From the NCBI GenBank assembly GCA_022841475.1, contig JALHRJ010000009.1, positions 45,462 through 109,461 of the forward strand: 64,000 bases of DNA, in the 5' to 3' direction. Both the position numbers and the translations under genes were made by a program. The notes below the pieces were generated by a model. The model was not told where the DNA came from, did not search any database, and saw only the letters and a list, made by a program, of their open reading frames with translations. This document shows positions 18,609-58,072 of this stretch, piece after piece. Within the stretch, counting starts at the first letter, position 1; the number at the start of each line of letters is the position of its first letter. The stretch comes from Cyclobacteriaceae bacterium (GTDB lineage: Bacteria; Bacteroidota; Bacteroidia; Cytophagales; Cyclobacteriaceae).

Positions 18609-19511
18609 TTAAAAATTACTTATGGTGCGTTCATGAAAACTAAATGCGGACAATAGAACACCCAATGTTATTTCATGCGTTAAGAATTGTGTGCCTACTG
18701 ATTTACCTGTTGGAATTTCGAATATATAACCAAACCTGTATTGTTCTTTTAACAAAGTTTGTAGTAGAAAGCCATAGGTATTGAAGTTGCGGGTGAATAT
18801 ACCTGCTGTGTGTATCGCATTGAAATTCACATTAAAAGCAACATCGACTGTAGCGGGTGCGCCTTTTACTCCGCGCAAAAGTACCGATGGCTTCAACCGA
18901 ATGTATTCATTCAGATAATGTACATACGCAATGGCCAGATAAAAATGCTGATTATACAATTCAAATTGCTGACCACCATTTTCAAAAGTGGATGGAAGAA
19001 GCCGTGGTACAGAAAGTCCGAGAAAGAATTTTTCACTTTTTAACACGGCACCTGCACCCATATTAATCCGGGTGCCACGCTCTCCGCCAGTAAAGGCAAA
19101 ATCGCCCTGATCGAATACATTTATAGCTGAGTAGTCGGTACGATAATTTTGAAAGCCGGCTTGCATGCCAAAGCTAAAGGTGGTTTCATTCAGGTTGAGT
19201 TTGTAAGCAAACGTCATGTTGGTTTCGGTATTGGTTATGTTTCCAATCTTATCGTTCATGAAGACAATGCCAAGTCCTACTTTGTTATTCACAAGTGAAG
19301 TATGCGCAGTGGCGTTGATGGTTTGCGGATGGCCGTCAAAGCCCGTCCATTGAGTTCGATAACCTGCCATGATAGTAAGATTGTTATTCAAACCTGAATA
19401 AGCAGGATTGATAACCAATGGATTGAGCATGTACTGCGAATACAGAGGATCTTGTTGTGCGAAAACTGAAACAGAAGCAAGCAGGAAGAGGAGGGTGTAA
19501 AGTTTTTTCAT
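18609..19511 (-). CDS. PorP/SprF family type IX secretion-associated membrane protein
   Basis: 300 aa; QQDPLYSQYMLNPLVINPAYSG N-terminus and C-terminal GTQFLTHEITLGVLL typical of the family. Confidence 0.92.
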   Translation of the reverse strand: MKKLYTLLFLLASVSVFAQQDPLYSQYMLNPLVINPAYSGLNNNLTIMAGYRTQWTGFDGHPQTINATAHTSLVNNKVGLGIVFMNDKIGNITNTETNMTFAYKLNLNETTFSFGMQAGFQNYRTDYSAINVFDQGDFAFTGGERGTRINMGAGAVLKSEKFFLGLSVPRLLPSTFENGGQQFELYNQHFYLAIAYVHYLNEYIRLKPSVLLRGVKGAPATVDVAFNVNFNAIHTAGIFTRNFNTYGFLLQTLLKEQYRFGYIFEIPTGKSVGTQFLTHEITLGVLLSAFSFHERTISNF

Positions 19512-19546
19512 ACACCAAATCTGATCAAAATCAGTTCATAAAGGTA

Positions 19547-19562
19547 TCACATGATGATGTGA
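19547..19562. promoter_or_regulatory. Dyad motif TCACATGATGATGTGA, copy 1
   Basis: Inverted arms TCACAT/ATGTGA around GATG; 35 nt from the PorP/SprF start at 19511. Confidence 0.7.
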
Positions 19563-19649
19563 GGTTGGTAATGTATAAGAAACTGCTTACCGTCCTGTTA
19601 GTGTTAATTATCTTTTTCAGACTCTTTATCAAGATTATAAAATTGAATC

Positions 19650-21008
19650 TTATAGTGAAGGGCTAACCGGACCTTTGTTGTTGGCTATGCGGATAATAAA
19701 ATAACCGATCACGCTGGCTATAATAGACGCAGCAAGCACGCCCAGCTTGGCTTGCACTGCATATTCTTCCTGTCGAAATGCCAATCCTGAAATAAAGAGA
19801 GACATGGTGAACCCGATGGCTGCCAAAAACCCTGCTCCCCACATGTGCCACATGTTAACTCCTTGTGGAAGCACGGCCCATTTAAAGAATAGTATCAGAT
19901 ACACCACCCCCACTACCCCGATAACTTTGCCCACCAGTAACCCGAAGAAAATTCCCATCGATACCGGACTTTGAATTTGTGTAGGGAAATCGCCAGATAA
20001 TTCTACTCCAGCATTACTTAACGCAAATATGGGCATGATCAAAAACGCTACAAACGGATGCATGCTATGCTCCAGACGTTGCAAAGGAGTAAGTGCCTGC
20101 TCTGAAAAATTTTCAATTTTAGATAAAATTTTGAATTGCTCTTTTGATACAGTGGGTAGGGTATTGACTTCCGCGGATTTAAATTGAACAAGAAGTCCTT
20201 CTAGTTTTTGACTATAATAATCAGCTGAAACTTTAACTCTAGCAGGTATGGTAAAAGCAGCCAATACCCCGGCAATGGTGGCATGTACGCCCGACATGAT
20301 AAATGCCAGCCATAAACCGGCTATGCCTACGATGCCATAGAATATAGTACTCCTTACGCCCATTAAATTCGCCACGATGAGCACCACCATAAAACCAGCT
20401 CCCGTTACTAAACTAACAACGTTGATGTCGGATGTATAGAAAAGTGCAATGACGAGCACAGCGCCAAGATCATCGACAATAGCCAGTACGGTGAGAAATA
20501 TTTTGAGTGAAAGCGGAACTTTATCACCTAATAAATAAAGTACGCCCAAAGCAAAAGCAATATCCGTGGCCATGGGAATGCCCCAACCATCTACGGTGTC
20601 GCCTGAATGATTAAAAATGAGATAGACTAGCGCAGGCACCAACATGCCGCCCATAGCAGCCGCGATGGGAAGCACCGCTTTTTTCGGATCACTCAATTCC
20701 CCGGCAATTATTTCTCGTTTCAACTCAAGACCTACAACGAAAAAGAATAAAGACATAAGTCCATCATTGATCCAATGATGTAAATCCTTGCTGATGATGT
20801 ACTCATCGTATCCAATGCTTACCTGATGTTTCCATAGTTGCTGAAATTCTTCGGACCAGGGTGAATTGGAAAGTAGTAATGCTAGTGCAGCAGACGAAAA
20901 CAACACAATGCCACTTGTAGTGCTGTTGTTGATAAACCGACTTAACGGATCAATAATCCATCGGTCAACCGGATAAGTTCTTTTATTATCATCCTTCATC
21001 TTCATCAA
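19650..21008 (-). CDS. nhaA: Na+/H+ antiporter NhaA
   Basis: 452 aa; FFFVVGLELKREIIAGEL, MGGMLVPALVY, GWGIPMATDIAFALG, LAIVDDLGAV. Confidence 0.96.
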   Translation of the reverse strand: MMKMKDDNKRTYPVDRWIIDPLSRFINNSTTSGIVLFSSAALALLLSNSPWSEEFQQLWKHQVSIGYDEYIISKDLHHWINDGLMSLFFFVVGLELKREIIAGELSDPKKAVLPIAAAMGGMLVPALVYLIFNHSGDTVDGWGIPMATDIAFALGVLYLLGDKVPLSLKIFLTVLAIVDDLGAVLVIALFYTSDINVVSLVTGAGFMVVLIVANLMGVRSTIFYGIVGIAGLWLAFIMSGVHATIAGVLAAFTIPARVKVSADYYSQKLEGLLVQFKSAEVNTLPTVSKEQFKILSKIENFSEQALTPLQRLEHSMHPFVAFLIMPIFALSNAGVELSGDFPTQIQSPVSMGIFFGLLVGKVIGVVGVVYLILFFKWAVLPQGVNMWHMWGAGFLAAIGFTMSLFISGLAFRQEEYAVQAKLGVLAASIIASVIGYFIIRIANNKGPVSPSL

Positions 21009-21147
21009 ACTAGCAGATAATGAGAACTTTCAAAGTCTTTTGCAATTAATAATACGCATGCTGTTGATTACCGCATCAAGCCATGGAAATTAGAGGTGAT
21101 GAAGTCAGACTTCTAATAGCAAATTTTCTGCCACGAGATAAAATATC

Positions 21148-23670
21148 TTATTTCTTTAAAATCAGGTACCCGGTCTTTGTTTCTCGTGTGGATTTGAGAA
21201 AGATTTTGTAGAAATATGTTCCCGTAGGGAGTTCGTTTCCATTTTGATTGAGACCTTGGAATGCATTGACCTCGGAGTAATTTTCAGTTTCAAAGACTTT
21301 GCTACCCCAACGGTTGTATATAGTGACTGTGTTATTAGGTTCCAACAGTTCAATATTTAGAATCTTGAAGAAATCATTTTTACCATCGTTGTTGTGCGAG
21401 ACTGCATTAAAGATTTCAATTTCACCGATAACATTTATCTGAAGTTGTTGTGTGGTACATTCTCCAAACACATCGCACGCACGAATAGTAATTACATCGG
21501 TTCCTGTAAAGGAATTGCCAGCATAATTAATCTGTAGGGTCGTTCCATTCAGCGAAGCCTGAGCACCACTGGTTGGCTGTTGCACAATATTTAATGAACT
21601 CAATACAAGATTATTGTCGTCATCTGAAATTAGTGTTGATAAATCGATCGATACAGTATTGCCGATGGTAGTACTTAAAGTTGCAGCATTAATAACGGGA
21701 GCCGAGTTGGTGCAAGGTGAAGGCACAACGGTTATGGTAATAGCATCCGAAGCCGGACTGATGCATCCATTGGTATTAGTTACAGTCACTGAATAGGTAC
21801 CCGAAGTTGTAACTGTAATTTGTTGTGTTGTTTCTGCATTCGACCAGGTGTAAGCAGCAAATCCATTGGGTGCGTTAAGGGTAAGGATGTCAGTACTACA
21901 TACACTCAAAGTATTTCCTGGTAGGGGAGTAGTGGAAGCTAAGATGATTGGTTGATGTGGTAGTGGTTGAATGGTAGCAACAACCGGAGTTCGCTCGCTT
22001 TCGCAGACACTGTTGTTAATGGAAACATAATAGGTAGTAGTGGCAGATAGCGGTGGTGTGTTGAAAGTTTCATTGATTGCCCCTGTCAATGCAGTACCTC
22101 CTGATGCCACATCATACCAGCGGTATTGACAGTTATTACCGCCCGATGCTGTAAGTGTAATGATTGCATCAACCCCACAGGCTTCATTATCAATAGTCGT
22201 TGGAACGGCAGGCACCGGATTGATAAAGGCTGTAACCTGCACCCGGTCGCTTTCGCAGGTTCCGTTTTGAATGGTAACAAAATATGCGGTAGTGTCTGTG
22301 AGAATTGGTGTTTGAAAAGTATTTTCCGTTATTCCGTCAATGGCATTCACATCGGTGAGCGATGTATACCATTGATAGCTTTGCGTAGCAATCGCACCCG
22401 ATGCGGAAAGCAATACACTGCCATTTCCACAACTGGCCGCATCTATTACAGCAGGTGGAGAGATTGGATCGCAGATTACTGCGGGCGTAGCAAAGGCATG
22501 CACCGCTTGTTTGCTGCGCTTGTTTGCATTATCAATTGCCGTAACACGAATTTCATAATTCGTATCGGGTAAAAGACCATCCAGTACAGCATTAAAATCG
22601 AGTGTCAGGTTTGCGGCTGGAGGAAAGTTTGAAACCGTGCGCAGTTCGGATGGTGTTTGGGTTGCAATATCTTTATAGAAATACTCCACAGCAACAATCT
22701 CACTACCTTCATTTGCATTATAAAAAGGTCGTGCCAACGGCTGACTCCAGCGCCCATTTACATCTTGCGTGCGTAGATACAGGGTATGAGAACCATCGGG
22801 TACACTGGCAAGATTAATCACAAAGCTTTCGGTAACGTTTGAAGTTGAAAGTGCAACCTGTTCGGCATTGCCAAGGCCCGGATCGGTATCGATAAAATAC
22901 TCCAGGCGTATTAAGGCAGGTGTGGAAGCCGATTGCGCATTGCGCTGCACAAACACCGGGTGAATAACCGGTATGCTCCACAACCCGTTGCTGTCTTTCG
23001 CGCGAATGTATAATGAGTTAAACCCTTCGGGGATGGTGCTTAACGGAATGGTAAAATCACGTGTAATGTTGATGGCAGCTGTGATAGGTATCTCGATTCC
23101 ATTTCCGATACCTGGATCAGTGTTAAAAAAATATTCAATACGTGTAAGTGGAGTTATACTGGCGCTTTGAGCAGATAGCTGTACATATACAGGATGAATA
23201 ACTGGAATACTCCATAAGCCATTATTGTCTTTGGCGCGGATGTAAAGCGAATGAAAACCTTCGCTTACGGTGCCAAGCGGTACAGTAAAACCCTGCGTGA
23301 TGTTGACTGCGTTGGCGATGGGAATTACAGTGCCGTTACCAAAGCCGGGGTCTATATCAAAAAAATATTCTACCCGCGTAAGCGGAGTTACACTGGCGCT
23401 TTGCGCAGACAGTTGTACATAAACAGGATGAATAACCGGAATACTCCACAATCCATTATTGTCTTTGACGCGGATGTAGAGAGTATGAAAACCTTCAGTT
23501 ACGGTGCCAAGGGGTACTGTAAAACCTTGCGTGATGTTGACTGAACTGGTGATGGGGATAGAAGTAGCATTGCTAAAACCCGGATCGGTATCGAAGAAGT
23601 ATTCCGCGCGCGTAATATTTTGCGCATATAGCGAAGCACTAATGACTAAGAAAAGAAGTATTAGACGCAA
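21148..23670 (-). CDS. EYFFDTDPG-repeat protein with Ig-like domains and CHU_C type B T9SS sorting domain; probable TTG start
   Basis: Four (R)xEYFFDTDPGxGNG repeats; C-terminus FNAVSHNNDGKNDFFKILNIE...TYFYKIF. ORF-track start (23808) overlaps the upstream gene; TTG at 23670 gives MRLILLFLVISASLYAQ, matching paralog MRLFLLLFFCSSGLFAQ at 55724. Confidence 0.88.
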   Translation of the reverse strand: MRLILLFLVISASLYAQNITRAEYFFDTDPGFSNATSIPITSSVNITQGFTVPLGTVTEGFHTLYIRVKDNNGLWSIPVIHPVYVQLSAQSASVTPLTRVEYFFDIDPGFGNGTVIPIANAVNITQGFTVPLGTVSEGFHSLYIRAKDNNGLWSIPVIHPVYVQLSAQSASITPLTRIEYFFNTDPGIGNGIEIPITAAINITRDFTIPLSTIPEGFNSLYIRAKDSNGLWSIPVIHPVFVQRNAQSASTPALIRLEYFIDTDPGLGNAEQVALSTSNVTESFVINLASVPDGSHTLYLRTQDVNGRWSQPLARPFYNANEGSEIVAVEYFYKDIATQTPSELRTVSNFPPAANLTLDFNAVLDGLLPDTNYEIRVTAIDNANKRSKQAVHAFATPAVICDPISPPAVIDAASCGNGSVLLSASGAIATQSYQWYTSLTDVNAIDGITENTFQTPILTDTTAYFVTIQNGTCESDRVQVTAFINPVPAVPTTIDNEACGVDAIITLTASGGNNCQYRWYDVASGGTALTGAINETFNTPPLSATTTYYVSINNSVCESERTPVVATIQPLPHQPIILASTTPLPGNTLSVCSTDILTLNAPNGFAAYTWSNAETTQQITVTTSGTYSVTVTNTNGCISPASDAITITVVPSPCTNSAPVINAATLSTTIGNTVSIDLSTLISDDDNNLVLSSLNIVQQPTSGAQASLNGTTLQINYAGNSFTGTDVITIRACDVFGECTTQQLQINVIGEIEIFNAVSHNNDGKNDFFKILNIELLEPNNTVTIYNRWGSKVFETENYSEVNAFQGLNQNGNELPTGTYFYKIFLKSTRETKTGYLILKK

Positions 23671-23677
23671 AATTCTT

Positions 23678-24721
23678 TCAGTTATTCGACTTGGCTTTAA
23701 TCGTAATAGGCAATCCGGTATTTTTTTCACCTGTTGTGGGTGCATTAAGTTGGTAAATGGTAGGTATGGGCGGTATACCCGAGAGTACATACGGTTCATC
23801 ACCACCAAACATGCCTATGTCTACGCCCTCATAACCTGCACCTATAGCAGGGGAGCCCTCTTTGAGTTTCCAGTAGCTATCGGTAGATCCAGTACCGTCA
23901 ACTATAGTGCTAAGCGGTACATTGACAAGGTTGCCATTGGTTGCAGCAAATGGGACACTATTGATTGCAATATTATTGCGGACAACAGAACCTGTTGCAA
24001 TAAGTGCATTAGTAGGCGCGAAAAATAGATTGTTCTGAATAAGCGCATTTGTAACATTCAATGAACCCTGAATTGTGTTGTTTGAAATTTCAAGCCCTGA
24101 ACCCGATGAGATGACAGAATATGTACTAGAAGAAAAAGTGTAGAGAAAATTATTTCTTATGCGGATATTCGAAAATCCAGGGTCAACCAGAACACTTGAG
24201 CCCAAAGTTGATTCAGGTGGTTGCATATAGTTTTGAACGATATTAATGAACGAGCCTTGAACCCTGATATAAGCTTCGCTTGCGGTTCCACATAATCTCC
24301 ATCGAAAAGTATTTCTCTTGATAAGAATATTGCTCGTAGAAATTCTTATCCGGCCAATCATCCTAACACCCATAAGAACACTTCCCTCAGAGCCGGCCGC
24401 AAAAACCAATCCCTCTTCACATGGATTGGATAAAGATTTATCCAATGTTGCCGATAAAAACGAAACTTGTGTCTCCGGATTATTCAAAAAATACCCAGGC
24501 CCAATAATGATGAGTCGTTTGTTGATGGTAACTTTTGTTGTGATGTAACTCACTCCCGAGCCAATCAGGTACAACGTATCTCCCGCATTGGCGCCATCAT
24601 GGGCTTCTTGTAAATTCGCAAAATCCTTTGAAGCGCTACCTGGGTCACTGTCTACAATCCAGATTTTAGCGGAGACAGTGAGGGGTAGTAACAGTAAGGC
24701 GATTAGGTATAGTGGCTTCAT
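23678..24721 (-). CDS. Right-handed beta-helix-like secreted protein (paralog family A)
   Basis: 347 aa; AKIWIVDSDPGSASKDFANLQEAHDGANAGDTLYLIGS...ISNNTIQGSLNVTNALIQNNLF...GEKNTGLPITIKAKSNN. Confidence 0.82.
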   Translation of the reverse strand: MKPLYLIALLLLPLTVSAKIWIVDSDPGSASKDFANLQEAHDGANAGDTLYLIGSGVSYITTKVTINKRLIIIGPGYFLNNPETQVSFLSATLDKSLSNPCEEGLVFAAGSEGSVLMGVRMIGRIRISTSNILIKRNTFRWRLCGTASEAYIRVQGSFINIVQNYMQPPESTLGSSVLVDPGFSNIRIRNNFLYTFSSSTYSVISSGSGLEISNNTIQGSLNVTNALIQNNLFFAPTNALIATGSVVRNNIAINSVPFAATNGNLVNVPLSTIVDGTGSTDSYWKLKEGSPAIGAGYEGVDIGMFGGDEPYVLSGIPPIPTIYQLNAPTTGEKNTGLPITIKAKSNN

Positions 24722-24877
24722 ACGTATATTGTTAGAATATTTTAATAGGGATTATAAATCAGCAATAATTAAAGCCTACAATCAATAGGTATTTATCCCT
24801 AATTTTCTGCAGAGCATAGGTAATAGGTTTTAGTTTTCACTTCACTGTAAGTTGATAGGAAATGTAAATAGATTCAA

Positions 24878-24893
24878 TACATGAATTCAGGTA
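24878..24893. promoter_or_regulatory. Palindromic operator-like site TACATGAATTCAGGTA (distal half of a pair)
   Basis: One mismatch from perfect palindrome TACCTGAATTCAGGTA located 34 bp away. Confidence 0.6.
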
Positions 24894-24911
24894 ATTCTTG
24901 TCTTACACATT

Positions 24912-24927
24912 TACCTGAATTCAGGTA
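24912..24927. promoter_or_regulatory. Perfect 16-bp palindrome TACCTGAATTCAGGTA
   Basis: Sequence equals its reverse complement; lies in the divergent intergenic region between the beta-helix gene (start 24721) and the LuxR-type regulator (start 25093). Confidence 0.7.
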
Positions 24928-25092
24928 GTGTTTAGAAATATTAAAGGGTTCAGCGATCGAGAAGCTCTATCTGCCAAACAAGTTATATTTTTGACACAGC
25001 TATAAATGATCGTTAGATAAGTAGTAACAAATTCGTAAGTCAAAATGTTAGATCAATGAACATACAGTAATAGCGGTAAACTCGTTACGCAG

Positions 25093-25890
25093 ATGAAGAA
25101 TACCTATCTCAAAAAAATTAGTCCCAGTGAATTTCAGCAGGAAAAAATGGGCACGCACGAATCGCTGGACAGTAGTTCGGTGCTCTCTTATTTTACTCCT
25201 GCCTTGCAGCAGATTGATACGTTTGCCATTGGCAGGTATTTTTGGTTTATCGGAGATGTCACTACTTTTCAAAATCTGTATGCTGGAGGCATGCTGGAAG
25301 AAATGATTCCGGTTACGATGGAGGAGTTTATTGGAGGGCCAGCAGATTTACTATTCGCAAATTGCTTTCCGGAAGATCTGGATAAAATGTTATCCTTCTC
25401 GCAATATTATGGAAAGTATTGCAGTCAGCTATCCGTAAGTGAGCGTAAACATATCCGCACAACTATTTTTATAAGACTTAAAAATCCTCAAGGGTATTAC
25501 TATTGGGCCATGGCGCAGTTCCTGGATGCCATTTTTAATAGCGAAGGGAGATTGCTTTATGTGCTTACGCTCCATACTGATGTATCGCATTTAAAGAAAG
25601 ATGGCGTGGCCACCATGACGATCATGGACTCACGCAATAAACAAAGCCAGTTATTTCTATGTGTGGATGGTTTAGCACCAGAACTACAACAGACAATTCC
25701 CAAAATATCGAAACGGGAATTGGAGGTCCTCAGTTGGATTGTCAAAGGCCAAAGCAGCAAACAAATTGCAGAAGCACTTCATCTTTCCAAAAAAACGATT
25801 GATAATCACCGACAGAATTTATTGCGTAAAACCCAAACAAAAACTACGGGTGGGCTGGTAGCTTTTGCCATGGATCATGGGTTGTTGTAA
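25093..25890 (+). CDS. PAS-like sensor / LuxR-type HTH transcriptional regulator
   Basis: 265 aa; C-terminal ISKRELEVLSWIVKGQSSKQIAEALHLSKKTIDNHRQNLLRKTQTKTTGGLVAFA. Confidence 0.88.
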   Translation: MKNTYLKKISPSEFQQEKMGTHESLDSSSVLSYFTPALQQIDTFAIGRYFWFIGDVTTFQNLYAGGMLEEMIPVTMEEFIGGPADLLFANCFPEDLDKMLSFSQYYGKYCSQLSVSERKHIRTTIFIRLKNPQGYYYWAMAQFLDAIFNSEGRLLYVLTLHTDVSHLKKDGVATMTIMDSRNKQSQLFLCVDGLAPELQQTIPKISKRELEVLSWIVKGQSSKQIAEALHLSKKTIDNHRQNLLRKTQTKTTGGLVAFAMDHGLL

Positions 25891-25949
25891 CTCAATGCAG
25901 CAATGCTAAGAGAATAGCGATAGCAATAGGAGGGTATGCGGGAATAAAT

Positions 25950-28900
25950 TCACCGCTTTAAAACCAGGAAGCCTGTTTTCGTTTCTTGAGAAGATTTCAG
26001 GACGATTTTGTAGAAATATGTTCCCGAAGGTAGTTCGTTACTATTTTGATTGAGACCCCGAAAGGCATTGTCAGGATTATAGTTATCTACTTCAAAAACT
26101 TTGCTACCCCAACGGTTGTAAATAGTCACTGTGTTTTCAGGATCCAAAAATTCAATGTTTTGAATCTTGAAAAAATCATTTTTGCCATCATTGTTGTGCG
26201 ATACCCCGTTAAAGATTTCAATTTCACCGATAACATTTATCTGAAGTTGCTGCGTAGTACATTCCCCAAATACATCGCACACACGAATAGTAATTGCATC
26301 AGTTCCTGTAAAGGAAATACCAGCGTAGTTAATCTGAAGTGTCGTTCCATTCAGTGAAGCCTGTGCGCCACTGGTTGGCTGTTGTAGTATAGTCAAAGAA
26401 CTTAATAAAAGATTATTGTCGGCATCCGAGATTAATGCGGATAAATCAATCGATACAGTATTGCCGATGGTCGTACTCAGGGTGGTGTTGTTAATAACCG
26501 GTGCCGAGTTGTTGCACGGAGCGGGAACAACCGTAACGGTAATAGCATCCGAAGCAGGACTTGAACAACCAGCGCCATCGGTAACGATTACTGAGTAGGT
26601 GCCGCTGGCAGTCACAATTAATTGAGAAGTAGTTGCACCGCTTGACCAACTGTAAGAAGAAAATCCATTGGGTGCCGAAAGCGTGAGTGAGGTAGTACTG
26701 CAAATGGTTACTGCGTTTCCAAGTAGAGTAATGTTACTTGTTATGGTTGGAATTGCAGGAAGAGGATTAACAGTTGCCGTAGCTTGTGTGCGGAGACTTT
26801 CACATAGGCCATTGTTTATAGAAACAAAGTACGGAGTAGTAGCTGTAATCGCTGGAGTAATATAACTATTATTTACTTCTCCTGCGATTGCAGTTCCTCC
26901 GGTAGCTACGGTATACCATCTGTATTCGCCATTAGCCCCACCAGAAGCATTAAGTGTAACACTGCCAGTCCCGCAACTTGAGCCATTGGTAACAGTTGGT
27001 GCTGCAGGAAGGGCATTGATAGTAAGTTGGGCGGCATCAGTGAAAACAGGAGATGCCAGATCACCGGTAATTCTACAGCGATAAAAGCCAGCACCAAAGT
27101 TTGATGTAGTGTTTACGGAAATTGAAGCGGTACCTGCATTGCTAAAGCCTCCACCGTTATTAATATCGGTATATGTTCCGGCAAATGTGGTAGAAAATTG
27201 CCATTGATAGGTGATGTTGGTAGTGCCGGTGGCCGCTGTGGTAAATGACGTAGTAACTCCATCACACACTGCTAGTGATGCGGGATGAGGACTTATTGTA
27301 ATAACAGGCCCTACGGTTACGGTAAAATCATCTGCGCTAATCACACTCACACAATTTACACTTACTGTTATTTTCCCAGTAGTGGCTCCTGCTGGTACTA
27401 AGACAGTAATACTTGTTTCAGTGCTTGCTGTTACCGTTGCTGGTACTGCGTTGAAAAAGTTTACAACATTATCGGTGAGTAGTGTGCTGAAATTTGTTCC
27501 GGTAATGGTAACCGTGGTTCCTACCGGACCATTTGAAGGTGTGAAGAAAGCTATCGTTGGAGTTGGTAAGATGGTTGTCTGCCTCAGTTTTTGGATAAAA
27601 ATATCGTTCGAACCTGCGCTTACAAGATTATACGTACACGCTCCTGGATCAAAATCAACGGTGCCCTGAAACCATCCCGTCAGGTATACGTTGTTGGCGG
27701 CATCTAAAACAACGCAAACACTTCGATCATCACCCGTTCCGCTCATTGATCTGGCCCATTCGAAATTACCATCCGAATCAAGCTTGCAAATAAAAATATC
27801 ATTACTGCCTGCTGATGTTAAGTTAAAGACGCCTGCACCTGGATCAAAATCAACTGTCTGCACAAAGGTGCCCGATATATATACATCTCCTGATGCATCA
27901 AGCGCAACACCCAGTCCTTCATCATACCCGCTCCCACCCATGGATTTTGCCCACACAAAATCACCATCATTGGTAAGTTTGGAAACATAAATATCAAAAC
28001 CACCAAGAGAGGTAAGGTTGAAGACGCCAGCACCCGGGTCGAAATCTACAGTGCCATTGAATCTACTTGTTGTGTATACATTACCTGCAGCGTCCAGTGC
28101 AATCTTGCTGCCGTAAATTCCATCCGTATAATAGGTAGGATTACTATTTACCATTGCTTTTGCCCAAACAAAATCACCATCTTTTGTGAGCTTGGAAATA
28201 AAGACATCCCAATCTCCTGAGGCTGTCAAATTAAAAGTACTTGGACCTGGGTCAAAGTCAGCGGTGCTCTCAAAGTATCCGGTGGTAAAAATATTTCCGG
28301 CCGCATCCAATGCAATGCTATAGCCACGATCTTCATCAACGCCCCCCAGAGTTTTTACCCAAACAAAGTTTCCATTCGTATCGAGTTTCAAAATAAAAGC
28401 ATCTTCATGGCCAATGGTGACGAAGAAGGTACCCGGACCGGGATCGAAGTCTCTTGCTCCGCCCTGAAAGTAGACGCGACCCACCACCACCACATTTCCA
28501 CTGGCATCCACAACAATCTTAAGACCGTTGTCCCACCAGGTACCTCCGAGTACTCCCTTTGCCCAAACAAAATCTCCATTAGCATCTAACTTTGCAATAA
28601 AGATGTCAGTTTGTCCTGTTGTGGCTGCGGTCATATTAAAGGTACCTGGGCCTGGATCAAAATCAGAAGTGCCAGAAAAACCTCCTGTTATATAGACGTT
28701 TCCAGAGGCATCAACTGCAATACCTGCACCTCCATCAATGGCAGTTCCTCCAATTGATTTTGCCCATATTAAATTTCCGTTGGCATCCAGTTTGGTTATG
28801 AATGTATCGCTGCCACCTTTTGAGGTCATATTAAAAACAGCTGTACCCGGATCGAAATCAGCCGTGCCAGAATAAAATCCTGTGGTGTAGATATTGCCAG

Positions 28901-29069
28901 CTGCATCCAGAACTATATTCTGACAACCGTCATTTCCTGTTCCGCCCATTCGCCTGGCCCACTCTAATACCGCGGTTTGCTGAGCATACGAAGTATTTGC
29001 TATGGAAAGTATCGATATTACAATAATTTTAATATGTTGAAGTGAATTATTGGGACCGATGTTTTTCAT
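25950..29069 (-). CDS. SBBP (beta-propeller)-repeat, IPT/TIG and Ig-like surface protein with CHU_C type B T9SS sorting domain
   Basis: Repeats AKSxGGTxxDxGxxIAxDAxGNVYxTGxFxGTxDFDPGxGxFNLT; ITSFTPSNGPVGTTVTITGTNF-type IPT; C-terminus FNGVSHNNDGKNDFFKIQNIEFLD. Start MKNIGPNNSLQHIKIIVISIL at 29069 preferred over 29138. Confidence 0.9.
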   Translation of the reverse strand: MKNIGPNNSLQHIKIIVISILSIANTSYAQQTAVLEWARRMGGTGNDGCQNIVLDAAGNIYTTGFYSGTADFDPGTAVFNMTSKGGSDTFITKLDANGNLIWAKSIGGTAIDGGAGIAVDASGNVYITGGFSGTSDFDPGPGTFNMTAATTGQTDIFIAKLDANGDFVWAKGVLGGTWWDNGLKIVVDASGNVVVVGRVYFQGGARDFDPGPGTFFVTIGHEDAFILKLDTNGNFVWVKTLGGVDEDRGYSIALDAAGNIFTTGYFESTADFDPGPSTFNLTASGDWDVFISKLTKDGDFVWAKAMVNSNPTYYTDGIYGSKIALDAAGNVYTTSRFNGTVDFDPGAGVFNLTSLGGFDIYVSKLTNDGDFVWAKSMGGSGYDEGLGVALDASGDVYISGTFVQTVDFDPGAGVFNLTSAGSNDIFICKLDSDGNFEWARSMSGTGDDRSVCVVLDAANNVYLTGWFQGTVDFDPGACTYNLVSAGSNDIFIQKLRQTTILPTPTIAFFTPSNGPVGTTVTITGTNFSTLLTDNVVNFFNAVPATVTASTETSITVLVPAGATTGKITVSVNCVSVISADDFTVTVGPVITISPHPASLAVCDGVTTSFTTAATGTTNITYQWQFSTTFAGTYTDINNGGGFSNAGTASISVNTTSNFGAGFYRCRITGDLASPVFTDAAQLTINALPAAPTVTNGSSCGTGSVTLNASGGANGEYRWYTVATGGTAIAGEVNNSYITPAITATTPYFVSINNGLCESLRTQATATVNPLPAIPTITSNITLLGNAVTICSTTSLTLSAPNGFSSYSWSSGATTSQLIVTASGTYSVIVTDGAGCSSPASDAITVTVVPAPCNNSAPVINNTTLSTTIGNTVSIDLSALISDADNNLLLSSLTILQQPTSGAQASLNGTTLQINYAGISFTGTDAITIRVCDVFGECTTQQLQINVIGEIEIFNGVSHNNDGKNDFFKIQNIEFLDPENTVTIYNRWGSKVFEVDNYNPDNAFRGLNQNSNELPSGTYFYKIVLKSSQETKTGFLVLKR

Positions 29070-29103
29070 ACTATCAAAGCTCATCAGGTTTGAGTCAAAA
29101 AAA

Positions 29104-29119
29104 TCACATGATGATGTGA
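29104..29119. promoter_or_regulatory. Dyad motif TCACATGATGATGTGA, copy 2
   Basis: 34 nt from the start at 29069. Confidence 0.7.
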
Positions 29120-29154
29120 GTAGGCTTAACCTTGCCAAGTTAAAAAAATCTTTG

Positions 29155-32100
29155 TTATCTTTTTAATACCAGATACCCGTTCTCCGTCTTTCCAGAAGAT
29201 TTGAGAAAGATTTTATAGAAGTATGTTCCTGATGGAAGTTCGTTTCCATTTTTATTGAAACCACGAAAAGCGTTTTGCTCATTGTAGTTTTCTACTTCGA
29301 AAACCTTACTGCCCCAGCGATTGTAAATGGTAACGATGTTTTCAGGTTCTAACAAATCAATGTTAGCGATTTTAAAGAAATCATTTTTGCCATCATTGTT
29401 GTTCGATACCCCGTTAAAGATTTCAATTTCACCGATGACATTTATTTGCAACTGCTGTGTAGAACATTCCCCGAACTCATCGCATACACGAATAGTAATT
29501 ACATCGGTTCCTGTAAAGGAAATACCAGAATAATTAATCTGTAGTGTCGTTCCATTCAGTGAAGCCTGAGCACCACTCGTTGGTTGTTGCAGAATAGTCA
29601 AAGAACTTAATACAAGATTATTGTCGGCATCCGAGATTAATGTGGATAAATCAATCGACACGGTATTACCGATGGTCGTACTCAGGGTAATGTTATTAAT
29701 TACCGGTGCCGAGTTGTTGCACGGAGCCGGCACAACCGTTACGGTGATAACATCCGAAGCCGGACTTGAACAGCCTGAGCCATCGGTAACGATTACTGAA
29801 TAACTTCCACTTGTACTTACGTTAATTTGTGAAGAAGTTGTTCCGTTGGACCAACTGTAAGAAGCAAATCCATTGGGTGCAGAAAGTGTAAGAGTGGTCG
29901 TACTGCAAATCGTTATAGCATTAGCAGTAAGCGTAATGCTGGATGTGATAGTGGGTATAGCTGGAGGAGTATTGACGGTAGCGGTTACAGGTGTTCGAAG
30001 ACTTTCGCATCCATTGTTTATTGAAACAAAGTAAGTGGTTGTTGTTGTGAGGGAAGGCGTAACATAAATACTATTTACCTCCCCAGCAATTGCAACACCA
30101 CCGGTTGCTGTCGTGTACCACCGATACTGACCATCAACTCCACCGGAAGCAACAAGCGTAACAATGCCCGCGCTACAACTGGCACCATTAGTAATAGTTG
30201 GCGCAGCCGGAATAGCATTGATAGTAAGTTCAACGGCATTACTGAATATCGAAGCAGCCAGATCACCAGAAATTCTGCAGCGATAGAAACCGGCACCAAA
30301 ATTTCCAGTCGTGTTTACAGAAAGTGATGCCGTATTTACATTTGTATAACCTCCTCCATTATTGATATCAGTATATGGTCCCGCAAGCGTGGTAGAAAAC
30401 TGCCATTGATAGGCGATGTTGGTGGTTCCTGTGGCTGCAGTGGTAAACGAAGTTGTGACTCCATCGCAGACTGTAGATGATGAGGGTTGAGTGATTATGC
30501 TAATAACCGGTGCTGTGGTCACCGTAAAATTACTTGAACTGGTAGCCGTGTTTCCAGCAATTGTGACAGTGATCGTTCCGGTGGTTGCTCCATTTGGAAC
30601 AGATGTAGTAATAGAAGTAGCGGTGCTTGCTGTAACAACCGCAGTTGTTCCATTAAACGCAACCGTGTTGTTGGCCGGTGTTGGATTGAAGTTAGTTCCA
30701 GTAATGGTTACAGTTGTACCAATTACTCCAGAAGTAGGTGTGAATGAAGTAATTGTTGGAACCGGAGCGACACCAATGATAAAGTTGGTTGCCGATTGCA
30801 CAGTCATACAATTTACGGTAACCGAAATTTTTCCTGTTGTGGAAGAAGCTGGAACGTTTGTAGTAATACTGGTAGGTGTACTGGCTGTTACGATGGCTGT
30901 TCTGTTATTGAAGAATATAACCCCGTTGTTAGTTGGTATTGAACTGAAATTTGTCCCAAGTAAAGTAACCGTTGTCCCGATGGGCCCGATGTCAGGTGTA
31001 AAAGATGTTATCAAAGGCGGTGGTATTGCCGTACCAAGAGTAATCTTTTCAACAAAACTATCATTGCCTGGTAAGTTCAAAACGCAAGGTCCAAAATCAA
31101 AGTCAACTGAAGGGCTGCCTGAGTAAAACCCGCCAACATAAATAGCGCCTGATGGATCGATGCAGATGGCGTTACCTCTGTCGCGATTGATTCCTCCGGT
31201 GTTAACCGCCCAAACAAAATTGCCATCGCTATCTAGTTTGGAAATGAAGAAATCGTCATTTACTCCGCCAAGAGCAGTTAAATTAAAAATCCCTGCCCCA
31301 GGATCAAAGTCTACCGTACGATAAAAAAAACCAGTGGTGTAAACATTTCCAAGAGCATCAGTCGCAATCGCCCTTCCATGATCAACCCCAGTACTGCCTA
31401 TTCCCTTTCCCCACACAAAGTTTCCATTGATATCTAATTTCGATATATATATATCGCCACTGTTAGCTACAGAAGTTATAGTAGAAACACCTGCCCCCGG
31501 ATCAACATCAAGGGTATTTACAAAGACACCCGTTGTCAACACATTGCCGGATAGATCGACAGAAATTCCGTACGCTTCAACGGTAAGAGTTCCACCGAGA
31601 GACTTCGCCCACACCAGATCACCATCATTATTCAGTTTTGTTACAAAGGCGTTGGGAAAACCTGTTCCTCCTGTACCGGTTATGGTGAACGTACCAATGC
31701 CGGGATCGAAATCTACTGTGCCACTAAATCTTCCGGTAACGTGAACATTATTGGCAGCATCAACACACATTGCATTTACTTGTGAACTACTACCAGCAGT
31801 TGTGCCGCCTAATGCTTTGGCCCAAATCAGATTTCCATTGCTATTGAGTTTCACGATGTAGGCGTTAACATTACTCCCTGATGCAGTTAAATTAGATATA
31901 CCAAGCCCCGGGTCAAAGTCAACAACACTCCCAAACAATCCTGCTGCATACACGTTGCCGACAGCATCAGTTGCGATACTATTTCCATATTCAAGGAACG
32001 AATTACCAAAACGAACAGCCCAGACAAAATTGCCATCTGCGTCTAGTTTTAATATGAAACTATCGTCATTGCCAGCTGCTACCAGATTAAAAACACCTGG

Positions 32101-32544
32101 CCCCGGATCAAAATCCGCAGTAAGAGTAAAATCCCCGGATATGTAAACATCCCCAGTACTCGTTACCGCAATAGACTTACCCACTGACCGGCTTGACGCA
32201 GGTCGTTCAATCGCTTTTGCCCATAAAAAATTGCCGTTGGCATCTAGCTTAGATATAAATGCAGCGGGTCCGCCAGCTCCTCCAGGTGAAAGGGTGAAAA
32301 CGGATGGTCCAGGATCAAAGTCTGTTGCTTCGGAAAACGATCCGGTTGTGTACACATTGCCAGCCCCATCAACAGCAACACCCAGTGTGGTATTATTGGC
32401 ACCGGGCCCTTCCGTTGCCTTTGCCCACTCAAGAACAGGGACTTCCTGTGCAGATACCTTTATAGTGGATACTGAAAGTGAAAAAATAGCTACAACAACC
32501 AATCTGAAGTATTGAAAAGGAGTAGAAGAGATTATTCTTTGCAT
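29155..32544 (-). CDS. SBBP-repeat, IPT/TIG and Ig-like surface protein with CHU_C type B T9SS sorting domain (paralog of 25950..29069)
   Basis: Same repeat types and near-identical C-terminal region; start MQRIISSTPFQYFRLVVVAIFSLSVSTIKVSAQ at 32544 puts the dyad motif at the same 35-nt distance as in the other copies. Confidence 0.9.
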   Translation of the reverse strand: MQRIISSTPFQYFRLVVVAIFSLSVSTIKVSAQEVPVLEWAKATEGPGANNTTLGVAVDGAGNVYTTGSFSEATDFDPGPSVFTLSPGGAGGPAAFISKLDANGNFLWAKAIERPASSRSVGKSIAVTSTGDVYISGDFTLTADFDPGPGVFNLVAAGNDDSFILKLDADGNFVWAVRFGNSFLEYGNSIATDAVGNVYAAGLFGSVVDFDPGLGISNLTASGSNVNAYIVKLNSNGNLIWAKALGGTTAGSSSQVNAMCVDAANNVHVTGRFSGTVDFDPGIGTFTITGTGGTGFPNAFVTKLNNDGDLVWAKSLGGTLTVEAYGISVDLSGNVLTTGVFVNTLDVDPGAGVSTITSVANSGDIYISKLDINGNFVWGKGIGSTGVDHGRAIATDALGNVYTTGFFYRTVDFDPGAGIFNLTALGGVNDDFFISKLDSDGNFVWAVNTGGINRDRGNAICIDPSGAIYVGGFYSGSPSVDFDFGPCVLNLPGNDSFVEKITLGTAIPPPLITSFTPDIGPIGTTVTLLGTNFSSIPTNNGVIFFNNRTAIVTASTPTSITTNVPASSTTGKISVTVNCMTVQSATNFIIGVAPVPTITSFTPTSGVIGTTVTITGTNFNPTPANNTVAFNGTTAVVTASTATSITTSVPNGATTGTITVTIAGNTATSSSNFTVTTAPVISIITQPSSSTVCDGVTTSFTTAATGTTNIAYQWQFSTTLAGPYTDINNGGGYTNVNTASLSVNTTGNFGAGFYRCRISGDLAASIFSNAVELTINAIPAAPTITNGASCSAGIVTLVASGGVDGQYRWYTTATGGVAIAGEVNSIYVTPSLTTTTTYFVSINNGCESLRTPVTATVNTPPAIPTITSSITLTANAITICSTTTLTLSAPNGFASYSWSNGTTSSQINVSTSGSYSVIVTDGSGCSSPASDVITVTVVPAPCNNSAPVINNITLSTTIGNTVSIDLSTLISDADNNLVLSSLTILQQPTSGAQASLNGTTLQINYSGISFTGTDVITIRVCDEFGECSTQQLQINVIGEIEIFNGVSNNNDGKNDFFKIANIDLLEPENIVTIYNRWGSKVFEVENYNEQNAFRGFNKNGNELPSGTYFYKIFLKSSGKTENGYLVLKR

Positions 32545-32579
32545 ACTCCAAATCTCCAAAGATTAGAAGTAACAGAAAA

Positions 32580-32595
32580 TCACATGATGATGTGA
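32580..32595. promoter_or_regulatory. Dyad motif TCACATGATGATGTGA, copy 3
   Basis: 35 nt from the start at 32544. Confidence 0.7.
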
Positions 32596-32687
32596 GGGGA
32601 TTGAAAACAGTATTACATTAATTTAAGAGCTAAACTGCAAACTTATTTTGTCACAGGTTTTAATTTTTTAAGGTACCACACATTCAA

Positions 32688-33305
32688 TTAGGTAAGAAGA
32701 GCGAATGCCCATACCACATAAAACCAGAGGTACCCTATTAAACTGATGGGATGTATTCTCTGTAGTGTTATCCAATCGTGCCGAAACATGGAGATGAACA
32801 ATAGATTCCACACAATAGAATTGAAAAGAATCACATCAAGTTCCAGCTTGCCCGCAACACGGTCTAAAATGGGTCCGAGCATATAAATTGTTGCCAGGTA
32901 AATGTAACGCTTGTGTTTTGTGCCTTCGGCTTTGTTGATAAATGCAAGCACAATAAGAATGGCATATCCAGCCATAAAGAACCGATTGGCCTTGGCCACA
33001 AACCAGGTCTCCTCCCAGCTTTCAAAAATGACAACAAAGACATATACTGTACTAATAAAAACTCCGGCTGCAATCCATCCGCCCACCGTACCTACTCTTT
33101 TGTGTGTTGCATAATCACCTTTTCTGATATAGAATGTTTGGAATACCAGAACGGAGAACCAGGCAAAACAAAATAGACCATGAATGATAAACTTAGGATC
33201 CGAATTACTTTTTTGACCAACATCGGTAATAAGATTATCGGAGAATGCAAAAAATGATAATGCAAGCAGGATGACACTAACAATGAAAAAGTAATGCTTT
33301 TTCAT
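32688..33305 (-). CDS. Multi-pass membrane protein of unknown function
   Basis: Several hydrophobic segments (FFIVSVILLALSFFAF, IAAGVFISTVYVFVVIF, FMAGYAILIVLAFI); start MKKHYFFI at 33305 abuts the stop of the upstream gene (33307). Confidence 0.65.
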   Translation of the reverse strand: MKKHYFFIVSVILLALSFFAFSDNLITDVGQKSNSDPKFIIHGLFCFAWFSVLVFQTFYIRKGDYATHKRVGTVGGWIAAGVFISTVYVFVVIFESWEETWFVAKANRFFMAGYAILIVLAFINKAEGTKHKRYIYLATIYMLGPILDRVAGKLELDVILFNSIVWNLLFISMFRHDWITLQRIHPISLIGYLWFYVVWAFALLT

Positions 33306-33306
33306 A

Positions 33307-35043
33307 TTACTCGACCTTATCAAACCGATGATGCATTAATCTGCTATGATGCACATCAAAATGAGTGGGAATACTGGAATCACTAAAATAAAACTGGACC
33401 CAAAAAGTAGACTCATAATCGGTTTCATAAAACTCTGTAGGAAGTTTAAACTCATTAAGCGTATGAGGTTCCAGAATTTTGTCGGAGATGGTGGGGCGTT
33501 TCACAACCAACTTGATGTCTTCGTTCAATATAATAGTCAAGTAGAAATCAAGATGTTTGCTGTAGTATTTACCAGCAAACTTTTGAAGGTATTCTTTTGA
33601 AAGGACTGGTGGTGCAGTAGTATCTTTTTTCCAGGTCGCAATCTTGGGTGAGCTATCTTGTATGTGAGCTTCTATGCGCATGACTGAATCGGGATGTGGC
33701 TGAAAGAAGCGAATCCAGACCGCATAATCTGGATCTTTGAAAACTCCATCGCCCACATGCTGCATCGGAACATTTTCTGTGGATGAATATTGCCAATATA
33801 AGGTGTCGCCTTTTGCTATCATGTTATAATAGGTCCTGCCTTTCACGGCACTTTGAAAGCTTTGTGTCAATTCTAGGTAACGCCCTGCATATTTTTGTAA
33901 ATCTTTCTCTTTAATAGGCACTGGTGTGGAAGAAAATATTTGTAACGCTGCTGTTGGCTCGTCATTTATTTGTAAAATGGCGGTTGCAATTGCACTCACT
34001 TTATCATCGTAGGCAGTTAGATTATTGGTGGTGCAAATAATAGCAACTCCAACACTGGGTATCCTTGCGAGATAAGAGAATCCGGTTACGCCCTCGTGCA
34101 AAATGATTTCGTAAGTACCGATCTTTTTTAATTTATATCCATGCGCATAATTCATTCCTTTCAGAACCGGGATGGGCCTGGCATTCTTTTTTAATCGTTC
34201 TGATGCTTCTGTGATAAAAGAATTTTTATCAGCAAAAGCGGCAGCCCATTTTTCCAAATCGTTTGCAGAAGTAAGGATGGTATAATTACCTCCGGGTGAA
34301 GTTTTATCGCGCAGCCAAACGTTGTAAACACCAGGCTCATCTTCAAAATACGAAAAGGCATGGTTGGCAATCATGGCTTCTTTATTTGTTCGCAGGGTGG
34401 TTGCCGACATCTGCAAGGGTTTGAATAATCTGCGCTCCATGTAGTCAGGTAATTTTTCGCCTGATGCCCTTTCTAAAATCAGCCGTAGCAATCCAAAATC
34501 AGAATTACTGTACATGTAGCCTTTCCCCGGTTCTACTTGCGGATCGGGTTGATTGTACAAGAAATTTAAAAACTGAGAAATATCCAGGCGGTTGTTCATG
34601 CTGGCTTGGGTAAGCACCAGCGTTGCCCATTCATCACAAAAACCACTGCTGTGGTTGAGCAAATCTTGCAGTGTTACGGGTTCGCTCCACGTTGGCAGCT
34701 TCGGAAAATATTTTCTGACTTTATCTTCCAGCCTCAGCTTTCCATCCAGCTCCAACAAAGCTGTAGCGATGGAGATAAACTCCCGGCCTTCGGAATAGGG
34801 GATGGTTACGACAGTATTATGATTGAAAGGCACTTTATGTTCAAGACTTGCCAGTCCATAATCTTTTTTCGTAATCACTTTTCCGTTTTGAAGTATGGTG
34901 ATGGCGTAGCCGGGAGATGAGGCGTTGTTGAAATCTTTGAATAGCGAATCTAATCTTTTGTTTAGATGAGATTTGTTAATCGAAATAATTTGTGCCGAGG
35001 TGGCAACCGTAACGAAAGAAAACAAAAGGGCTATTTTTTTCAT
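33307..35043 (-). CDS. Beta-lactamase/DD-peptidase-like serine hydrolase paralog with SEGR in place of SxxK
   Basis: 578 aa; LRLEDKVRKYFPKLP, LLNHSSGF, YSNSDFGLL (YxN) and HEG motifs; first motif reads YSEGREF. Confidence 0.85.
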   Translation of the reverse strand: MKKIALLFSFVTVATSAQIISINKSHLNKRLDSLFKDFNNASSPGYAITILQNGKVITKKDYGLASLEHKVPFNHNTVVTIPYSEGREFISIATALLELDGKLRLEDKVRKYFPKLPTWSEPVTLQDLLNHSSGFCDEWATLVLTQASMNNRLDISQFLNFLYNQPDPQVEPGKGYMYSNSDFGLLRLILERASGEKLPDYMERRLFKPLQMSATTLRTNKEAMIANHAFSYFEDEPGVYNVWLRDKTSPGGNYTILTSANDLEKWAAAFADKNSFITEASERLKKNARPIPVLKGMNYAHGYKLKKIGTYEIILHEGVTGFSYLARIPSVGVAIICTTNNLTAYDDKVSAIATAILQINDEPTAALQIFSSTPVPIKEKDLQKYAGRYLELTQSFQSAVKGRTYYNMIAKGDTLYWQYSSTENVPMQHVGDGVFKDPDYAVWIRFFQPHPDSVMRIEAHIQDSSPKIATWKKDTTAPPVLSKEYLQKFAGKYYSKHLDFYLTIILNEDIKLVVKRPTISDKILEPHTLNEFKLPTEFYETDYESTFWVQFYFSDSSIPTHFDVHHSRLMHHRFDKVE

Positions 35044-35077
35044 AGCCCAATCTCAATAGATAAAAGATAGCAGAAAA

Positions 35078-35093
35078 TCACACGATGATGTGA
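35078..35093. promoter_or_regulatory. Dyad motif variant TCACACGATGATGTGA, copy 4
   Basis: 34 nt from the start at 35043. Confidence 0.68.
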
Positions 35094-36858: not shown

Positions 36859-39021
36859 TTATTTCACCTGCTGAAACTCGGGATGCCCAGATTGCCAAAG
36901 CATAAACTTAAGGGTTCCGATAATCTCATCTATGCCGCTACCCTGATGCCCGCCCTCCCAGTTCACCATTAACAATTGCGGTTTCGATCCTTTCTGTTTT
37001 GCCTGCAAGGATGCTATATATCGTGAGGGTGCAGTAAGATCAATGATGTAATCCGTGGCACCATGCACAACCAGCATAGCCGGTAAGTTTGAATTTGTAG
37101 GAATGTGATACAATGCGCTAAGACTGAATAATGATTGAAAGCCTTCTCTCGTTGCGATATCGCCTACGCTCCCTCGCTCTCTGGCATACGCAGCATCGCG
37201 GTAGGTTACCAGGTCGGGCAATCCCGCTTGAAAAATTCCACCCGCAAACAAATCAGGTCGTTGATTGATACTATTACCCACTAAAAAACTTCCGGCACTT
37301 CCACCCATTACAAATTGCTTATCTGGCGAAGTGTAATTGTTCTTTATAAAATACTCAGCCACATCGACCACATCATTGATCGAGTTCATTTTATGCGGAA
37401 ACTGTCCATCGTCAATCCATTCAAGTCCCAACTCTCCACCCCCGCGCACATGCGCGTAGGCATAAATGCCATGGCGGTTTATCCACGGCATCTGGTGCGG
37501 GTCATGTCCTACATCCCGAACGGCACCACTATTGCCGTAAGCTTCTATCAACAGTGCATTTTTCCCTTTGATGTTTAAATCTTTTTTGTACACCAGCGTA
37601 ACGGGAATCTTTTTGCCATCGCGTGAGGGTATTTCAATTACTTCCGTAACGACATCATCACTTAAATCCAGACTCAGTTTTGAAAAGGGTAGAGGTGCAA
37701 CAGTGTCCTGATCATAGTCATAAAGCATGTATTGCATGGATCGAATAGCATTGAATTGGGCAAAAACCAAGTCATTGTCACCTCTAAATTTCAGTTCCGC
37801 GATTGATCCTTTTCCATTGACATTAATTTTGGATACCTGCTTTGATGTATAAGGAATTTTATAAATGCCCATATCACCAACTTTTCGGTATAAAACATAT
37901 AAAGCGTCTTTGCCGGCAACAATCCCAGAGGAATGCTCTGCATCTACGTAGGACAGCACTTCATCTTGCGCTGGCATAAACGCAACGGGCTTATCGCCTG
38001 TCGACATATCTATTTGCACAATAGTATAACGCGGATGATCTTTTGTGGCTGCATACAAATAGGCACCTTATGCATCAAAGCCATCGCCAAGATTTACATA
38101 GTTGTTGAGCCGCTTCCAGGGTGTGTTGGCTCCATTTAAATCTTTATAATGAACTGCGAAAGCATAATTATCATCCGCACCATTTCGGATGCGTGCCACT
38201 AAATATTCTGAAGATTTGAAACTGTAGATGTAGGGTGTTTCAAAATCCTTTAGTTGTATCGCGCCATTTAACCCAATACCGAATAGTGCCTCATCTTGTG
38301 TAACAGCGTTTCCAATCTTATGAAGTTTAATCTTTCCATTATAGTACTTTTCACTTTCAATGGTTGATGGAGGTGCCTGCGAATAAAGTAAACCACTATC
38401 GTCCGGAAGCCACGTCATGGAGACACCACGAGAATCATTGAACATGATCGGAGCAATGCTATCAGTCAGAAATATTTTTTTATCGAGGTCGTAAACACGA
38501 ATGTGCGGGTTCGCCTCGCCTCGTTGCACCAACATCATAGCTACCCATGGTTTTTGGTGGGCATACACTTCTTTGCGACTTCGGTATTTTTGGCCTTTGA
38601 TGGTGATGCCACCCTGAAAAACAATTTCTTCCTCTGCATCTATGCTCTTTCTCCTACACAAGGCGGGACCTATCTCAGGGACATCACGATTGTAGTAAAA
38701 AAAATCATTCACAACCTCAATATCCCAAATCTCATCCTGCATCTTTATGTAGCCATCTTCAATTTCGGCCATCAATCGATCTCCATTCGGAATGCTGTCT
38801 AAGATGCTCTGCGTTAGTTTACCTTGCGCGTTTACCCAATCCATCAATTCATTTTCATTGGACTTGCGTGACATCCAAAAATAGGGATCGAAGATTTTGG
38901 TATCATAGATGGTGGTGTCGAATGGCTCGGTTCGGGTGATCGGGTATTCGAATTTGGTTTTCTGTGAACAACTAATGACAAAAATAGCGGAGAATGCTAA
39001 CAAAGAATTTTTTATACTCAT
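36859..39021 (-). pseudogene. Prolyl oligopeptidase (S9A-like) interrupted by one in-frame TAA; ORFs 38068..39021 (N-terminal propeller part) and 36859..38058 (catalytic part)
   Basis: Both ORFs are in the same frame; reading through gives ...YVNLGDGFDA*GAYLYAATKDHPRY...; catalytic GGSAGSFLVG, HGATDYIID and GGHQGSG are intact downstream. Confidence 0.8.
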
Positions 39022-39644: not shown

Positions 39645-39697
39645 GTTGAATAGTAGAACAAATTACTTTTAAAATATTGCTACAATAAATACCCCAA

Positions 39698-57947: not shown

Positions 57948-58072
57948 TTGGATTTGAGTTAATTTTATCTTGAAAAAAACCTGGTAATACCTGCTCATCT
58001 TGCTACAGATATGAGAGCAAGTGTATTTACTTATCAGATAGGTAAGATCTGTGAATAAAGCCCTTATCTCAA

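Follow-up and report, generated by a model that had tools for sequence, protein, structure and literature searches.

Several described systems come close to the one presented here. In E. coli, a NarL 7-2-7 site just upstream of the core promoter is sufficient for activation at ogt, where it lies at -44.5, and at yeaR-yoaG (PMC7419079). The locus analysed here, which lies in a 64,000-nucleotide stretch of a Cyclobacteriaceae genome (the window), is similar to NarX/NarL at these promoters in that it combines a NarL-family regulator, a HisKA_3-type kinase and a 7-2-7 repeat just upstream of the core promoter, but it differs in the half-site (TCACATN, compared with the TACYNMT type), in the Bacteroidota -7 box and in its surface-protein targets. 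Another kinase-regulator pair of the Bacteroidota, FimS/FimR of P. gingivalis, activates surface structures; however, transcription of mfa1 starts 434 bp upstream of its start codon, and a palindromic FimR site is not described in that report (PMC1974823). Two-component control is also linked to type IX secretion (T9SS) in the PorX/PorY/SigP system, although PorX acts through an ECF sigma factor or binds PorL (PMC4800418, PMC5005315). Unlike in that system, the targets here are cargo and PorP-like genes. PorX is not known to be a NarL/GerE protein. In P. gingivalis and F. johnsoniae, PorP-like proteins form complexes with type-B cargo (PorP-PG1035 and SprF-SprB; PMC9143113). These two partners correspond to the two target classes found most often here, although that work concerns anchoring and not gene control. 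In F. psychrophilum, remFG-sprCDBF is driven by sigma-54 and SM5-type promoters (PMC9723704). In the open-licence literature on the motif halves and on NarL with T9SS, no description of the operator was found.

Dyads upstream of surface-protein genes

An earlier note on this DNA had reported four copies of a dyad, one of them a variant, 34-35 nt upstream of the start codons of four minus-strand genes and at a variable distance from the preceding stop. All four were located at exactly the reported positions (Table 1), and on the forward strand dyads 1-3 read TCACATGATGATGTGA and dyad 4 reads TCACACGATGATGTGA. On the coding strand, the gap between dyad and ATG is 35, 34, 35 and 34 nt for dyads 1-4, as had been described, and the gap from the upstream stop, taken from the ORF coordinates, is indeed variable (87, 35, 92 and 9 nt, thus 9 to 92 nt). 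The identities given for the downstream genes (PorP/SprF, two SBBP/CHU_C proteins and a serine hydrolase) were likewise confirmed by PF11751, type-B sorting domains and PF00144. In the window dyads, the outer six bases of each arm pair and the 7th is unpaired; a perfect 7-2-7 palindrome, TCACATG-AT-CATGTGA, is found in three congeners (G009, G046 and G057).

Table 1. Positions of the dyads, -7-like boxes and genes in the window.
Feature	Position	Strand	Remarks
Dyad 1	19547..19562	-	TCACATCATCATGTGA on coding strand; precedes PorP/SprF gene
Dyad 2	29104..29119	-	Precedes SBBP/CHU_C gene
Dyad 3	32580..32595	-	Precedes SBBP/CHU_C gene
Dyad 4	35078..35093	-	Variant TCACATCATCGTGTGA; precedes serine hydrolase gene
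Fifth, half-degenerate dyad TCACATGATTGGGGTA	39690..39705	-	Overlaps kinase stop, before NarL regulator gene; full dyad there in relatives
-7-like box CAGATTTG	19516..19523	-	TTTG at offset 27 after dyad 1
-7-like box GAGCTTTG	29075..29082	-	TTTG at offset 25 after dyad 2
-7-like box GAGATTTG	32549..32556	-	TTTG at offset 27 after dyad 3
-7-like box GAGATTGG	35047..35054	-	Non-consensus, TTGG; after dyad 4
-7-like box GTAATTTG	39659..39666	-	TTTG at offset 27 after degenerate fifth dyad
PorP/SprF family outer-membrane protein	18609..19511	-	Target gene; PF11751 1e-64; TIGR03519 above cut-off
SBBP-repeat protein with type-B T9SS sorting domain	25950..29069	-	Target gene; PF13585, PF06739; TIGR04131 above cut-off
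SBBP-repeat protein with type-B T9SS sorting domain	29155..32544	-	Target gene; PF13585, PF06739; TIGR04131 above cut-off
Beta-lactamase/esterase-fold serine hydrolase	33307..35043	-	Target gene; PF00144 1.4e-39
NarL-family response regulator	39018..39644	-	Proposed dyad binder; PF00072 4e-26, PF00196 6e-17
TPR/HisKA_3 histidine kinase	39698..41698	-	Presumed sensor; PF13424, PF07730, PF02518; adjoins regulator gene

The occurrence of the dyad exceeds chance. When the 5.7 Mb genome was examined by pattern search, on which all genome-wide dyad counts are based, the four window dyads were the only matches with at most one mismatch, and the reversed-pattern control gave no match at one mismatch and one at two mismatches. 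Five more places appeared in the genome at two mismatches, all without the promoter context. A shuffle test restricted to the window at three mismatches gave a weak result (9 matches vs 4.3 expected), mostly because this tolerance is loose. Random placement relative to start codons had been named as a finding that would speak against the proposed regulon or leader element, and the genome-wide scan showed that the copies are not placed randomly. Other TCACA-N6-TGTGA dyads, present at six further places in the genome, were rejected, having neither an ATG at 34/35 nor a TTTG at offset 26/27.

The dyad is also conserved outside this genome. A copy with at most one mismatch is held by 30 of the 63 genus genomes, compared with no control matches, and in the first genus regions 25 of 33 sites (at most two mismatches, 20-59 nt before a long ORF, the four of the window included) lie 34 or 35 nt before the ORF. 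Conservation in the leaders of other genomes, on which the earlier claim had also been staked, was therefore observed, and at the same distance from the start codon. In the wider family, the exact composite of dyad, 27 nt and TTTG occurs in 19 of 296 genomes and in none of the controls. In the genus, most targets are either PorP/SprF genes, whose products have the mature start QQDPLYSQY, or genes of large CHU_C proteins carrying Laminin_B, SBBP or FG-GAP repeats; among 39 target proteins, 19 match CHU_C and 14 match PorP_SprF. Taken together, conservation and target classes indicate an element that is conserved and tied to a functional class, and the coordinated control of surface-protein genes suggested in the note is supported as a reading of the local regulon.

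Several further observations were made in these sequences. In other genera of the family (L272, L273 and L293), the composite promoter is also found ahead of the gene for a membrane protein roughly 447 aa long (IRGVALLGILILNIPYFSMEEYF), which indicates a regulon that extends beyond T9SS genes. Sites of another type (TCACATAAACATGTGA/G and then TTTT) were seen at distant loci (L187:1557, L196:6783, L198:5708, L201:5701 and L219:5684) about 50-60 nt before another gene group, several of them having TTTG near offset 42 and not 27. At L026:1485-1530 (G030:C2:20010), the dyad match sits in the middle of a far longer perfect palindrome (TTAGTGATTAACTCACATGATCATGTGAGTTAATCACTAA) with other genes on either side, and is probably unrelated. 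Single matches in G002, G048 and G049, where promoter context or regulator is missing, were set aside as they look like chance. In alignment A3, weak matches to PF12256 (best 1e-8) occur in 8 of the 39 target proteins in addition to the FG-GAP repeats; they probably reflect a shared repeat fold and not a toxin function. The window also encodes, among the CHU_C genes, three similar secreted proteins (23678-24721, 55727-56776 and 56904-57998, minus strand; AKIWIVDS...LQ.AHDGA..GD.LYLIGS), a repeated family in the cluster; the one at 23678, the sole one of the three tested, has no Pfam match.

The -7 box and promoter geometry

A shared (C/G)AGATTTGG-like stretch before the ATG, also pointed out earlier, is exact at the dyads at 19547 (CAGATTTGG) and 32580 (GAGATTTGG) and altered at the remaining two (GAGCTTTGA and GAGATTGGG). 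The stretch is best read as a -7 box. A role as general start-codon context was rejected: of 18 AGATTTGG matches before ATG in the genome, the two at dyad sites lead into full-length signal-peptide genes, while no other has a dyad and most of the others lead into very short frames.

The spacing between dyad and TTTG is highly constrained. In the genus regions, TTTG starts 27 nt past the dyad in 31 of 114 oriented flanks, compared with about 1 at other offsets (P~1e-36), and at the distant loci this is so in 35 of 149 flanks, again compared with about 1 (P~1e-41). The offset holds at 26/27 even where the ATG is 59, 65, 99, 115 or 122 nt from the dyad. Because it stays constant when the ATG is distant, what is fixed is the spacing of dyad and TTTG, and the 34/35 nt before the ATG are a consequence of it. 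Thus, of the proposed anchoring to the downstream gene, the fixed distance holds, but the anchor is the -7 box and not the start codon itself. This geometry argues that the dyad is one half of a composite promoter, the -7 box being the other.

In F. johnsoniae, TTTG occupies -8 to -5 (PMC6847099). If the same position applies here, +1 would coincide with the ATG or adjoin it, and the dyad would extend from about -51 to -36, with its centre near -43.5; the sites of class II-type activators border the core promoter, at about -41 to -45, with a fixed spacing. The genus -7 box retains the TTTG core and A at -11, its T at -12 is mostly replaced, and G is common at -10, where it is virtually absent from F. 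johnsoniae promoters (PMC6847099). Many distant sites have a TAnnTTTG-like box, and the -7 box of the primary sigma factor, sigma-ABfr, is TAnnTTTG. At the dyad promoters no -33 box is evident, and the poor -7 box together with this fits a promoter that needs an activator. Leaderless or near-leaderless mRNA is predicted at many targets; in F. psychrophilum, leaderless mRNAs account for 5.5% (PMC9723704). Genes without the dyad show only a small excess of TTTG at -8 relative to the ATG (17 vs about 7).

The NarL-family regulator and its pairing with the dyad

Two regulators had been named as candidates for binding the dyad. Among the 62 other genus genomes, a single one has a close relative of the LuxR-type regulator at 25093; this regulator is thus almost missing from the genomes that carry the dyad, and it was rejected on this distribution. 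The NarL regulator at 39018 is supported as a candidate binder by co-occurrence and by dyads at the regulator promoters of relatives. It belongs to the NarL/FixJ (LuxR/GerE-type) class, with a receiver and a C-terminal GerE helix-turn-helix, and its PDB neighbours are VraR and NarL, full length. It scores 147 bits against the NCBIfam NarL equivalog, below the cut-off of 250, and the best reading by analogy is that it works like NarL, yet is not NarL by the curated cut-off. The best NCBIfam match of the kinase is FimS, at 93.9 bits and below the cut-off of 600.

Orthologs of the regulator with at least 60% identity were found in 34 of the 63 genus genomes (one, in G016, as a fragment), with a clear gap to paralogs at 48% or less. 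An ortholog is present in 27 of the 30 dyad genomes of the genus (Fisher P=3e-8), often within about 25 kb of the dyads, and in the family all 19 composite-bearing genomes are among the 117 of 296 genomes with a regulator relative (P=8e-9); both P values overstate the association, because genomes of shared ancestry are treated as independent. For seven regulator genomes with no one-mismatch dyad, a relaxed scan found promoter-context sites in four (G015, G023, G035 and G059). G046 has dyad and PorP with no regulator found, and in G001, G002, G020 and G043 the regulator is present with no site found nearby, two of these contigs being short. In five genomes (G025, G027, G036, G037 and G038), two NarL regulator copies lie about 8-30 kb apart in the same cluster (L055, L057, L062-L064, L150 and neighbouring stretches). 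Next to the regulator gene in the window, a prolyl-oligopeptidase-like protein (36859-39021, minus strand) is seemingly split into two separate ORFs 9 nt apart, one for the N-terminal propeller (38068-39021) and one for the catalytic domain (36859-38058); a frameshift, an error in the assembly or a genuine split could account for this.

The dyad is also found at the promoter of the regulator itself. In the window, the fifth dyad keeps its left half and TTTG at offset 27 while its right half has decayed; since the left half also encodes the kinase end, its survival alone is weak evidence. Seven congeners (G006, G009, G010, G013, G017, G047 and G060) have a dyad between kinase and regulator start that is followed by TTTA at offset 27. 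Among 79 Bacteroidota regulator loci, including Hymenobacter, Chitinophaga, Sediminibacterium, Flavihumibacter, Segetibacter, Larkinella and Maribellus, 34 have a dyad in the 200 bp that precede the regulator gene, compared with 0-3 at ten control offsets, so that the pairing of dyad and regulator subfamily is much wider than the genus. We read this arrangement as autoregulation in relatives. In addition, base 3 of the dyad varies with the recognition-helix class of the regulator: the SHIRK helix occurs with a TCGCAT half-site in 18 of 37 cases and other helices in 4 of 68 (P=6e-7). The two changed helix residues align with NarL V189 and K192, which we take to contact DNA in the NarL-DNA complex. 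This covariation ties the helix to the half-site in a suggestive way only, as it probably represents one evolutionary event.

Proposed circuit and alternative readings

We consider it quite likely that the dyad is the operator of the NarL-family regulator at 39018-39644, with class II-type activation at a weak -7 box. In this circuit, the kinase at 39698-41698 would be the sensor, and regulator dimers would bind the 7-2-7 inverted repeat (consensus TCACAT-N4-ATGTGA) at about -43.5. The bound regulator would stand in for a -33 element and bring RNA polymerase containing the primary sigma factor to the weak -7 box (nAnnTTTG, with TTTG 27 nt past the dyad), and transcription would start on or next to the ATG at many targets, giving leaderless or near-leaderless mRNA. 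The predicted targets are PorP/SprF genes, CHU_C type-B T9SS cargo and the serine hydrolase, joined in relatives by the gene of the regulator, and the outcome would be joint expression of a PorP/SprF-type partner and type-B cargo. Sequence statistics show that the element is composite, that its spacing is fixed, that it is tied to the regulator subfamily and that it is present at the regulator promoter of relatives, and from these we infer physical binding, dependence on phosphorylation, activation over repression, the start site and any signal.

Only the geometry points to activation, and the same operator and regulator could serve repression or mere relief of silencing by nucleoid proteins, as sites near -43 can also block polymerase and NarL is an anti-silencer at some promoters (PMC7419079). 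We regard this as unlikely, because the poor -7 box with no evident -33 box is what would be expected if an activator is needed, and the rigid 27-nt spacing suggests contact with polymerase. It is more improbable still that another protein inherited with the cluster binds the dyad and that the NarL regulator is merely a neighbour. Co-occurrence within a single genus can arise from linkage, but distant Bacteroidota keep the dyad at the regulator's own promoter, the recognition helix covaries with the half-site, and the remaining local candidate, LuxR 25093, is not conserved.

The fixed spacing would also suit a promoter of an alternative sigma factor with the dyad as its -35 element, and such factors are used for T9SS and gliding genes elsewhere in the Bacteroidota (PMC9723704, PMC4800418). 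However, a palindrome of 16 bp is what a dimeric regulator typically recognises and is not typical of a -35 box, and the -7 core matches the TTTG of the primary sigma factor, which leaves this reading very little probability. The earlier note had left the choice between a DNA operator and a 5'-UTR hairpin; a DNA operator of a local regulon is supported, whereas an RNA hairpin or terminator-like element acting in the transcript was rejected and is barely conceivable. The dyad is able to form a stem of 6 bp with a loop of 4 nt, and T frequently follows it. In an RNA stem, one-sided changes should favour G-U, but changes at stem pair 3 give A-C 19 times and G-U twice. Fold z-scores are unremarkable (-0.2 to -1.5), a search of positions 18000-42000 of the window against Rfam 15 at gathering score gave no match to cis-regulatory RNA families, and the -7 box and predicted start lie downstream of the dyad.

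With the operator of the NarL-family regulator as the preferred reading, we also propose, at slightly under an even chance, that undescribed autoregulated NarL-type systems across the phylum may share one operator code (TCACAT-N4-ATGTGA, 27 nt before TTTG, with no evident -33), and that in Cytophagales this code drives leaderless transcription of type-B cargo genes and their matching PorP/SprF partners. If this is true, the display proteins of Cytophagales and their anchor would be switched on together. Many NarL-type two-component systems of Bacteroidota have no known target, and with a defined operator and fixed geometry, their targets could be read from sequence. The circuit also points to a way in which type IX cargo may be expressed together with its PorP-like partner, and it would supply predicted near-leaderless promoters in a phylum in which few mRNAs are leaderless.
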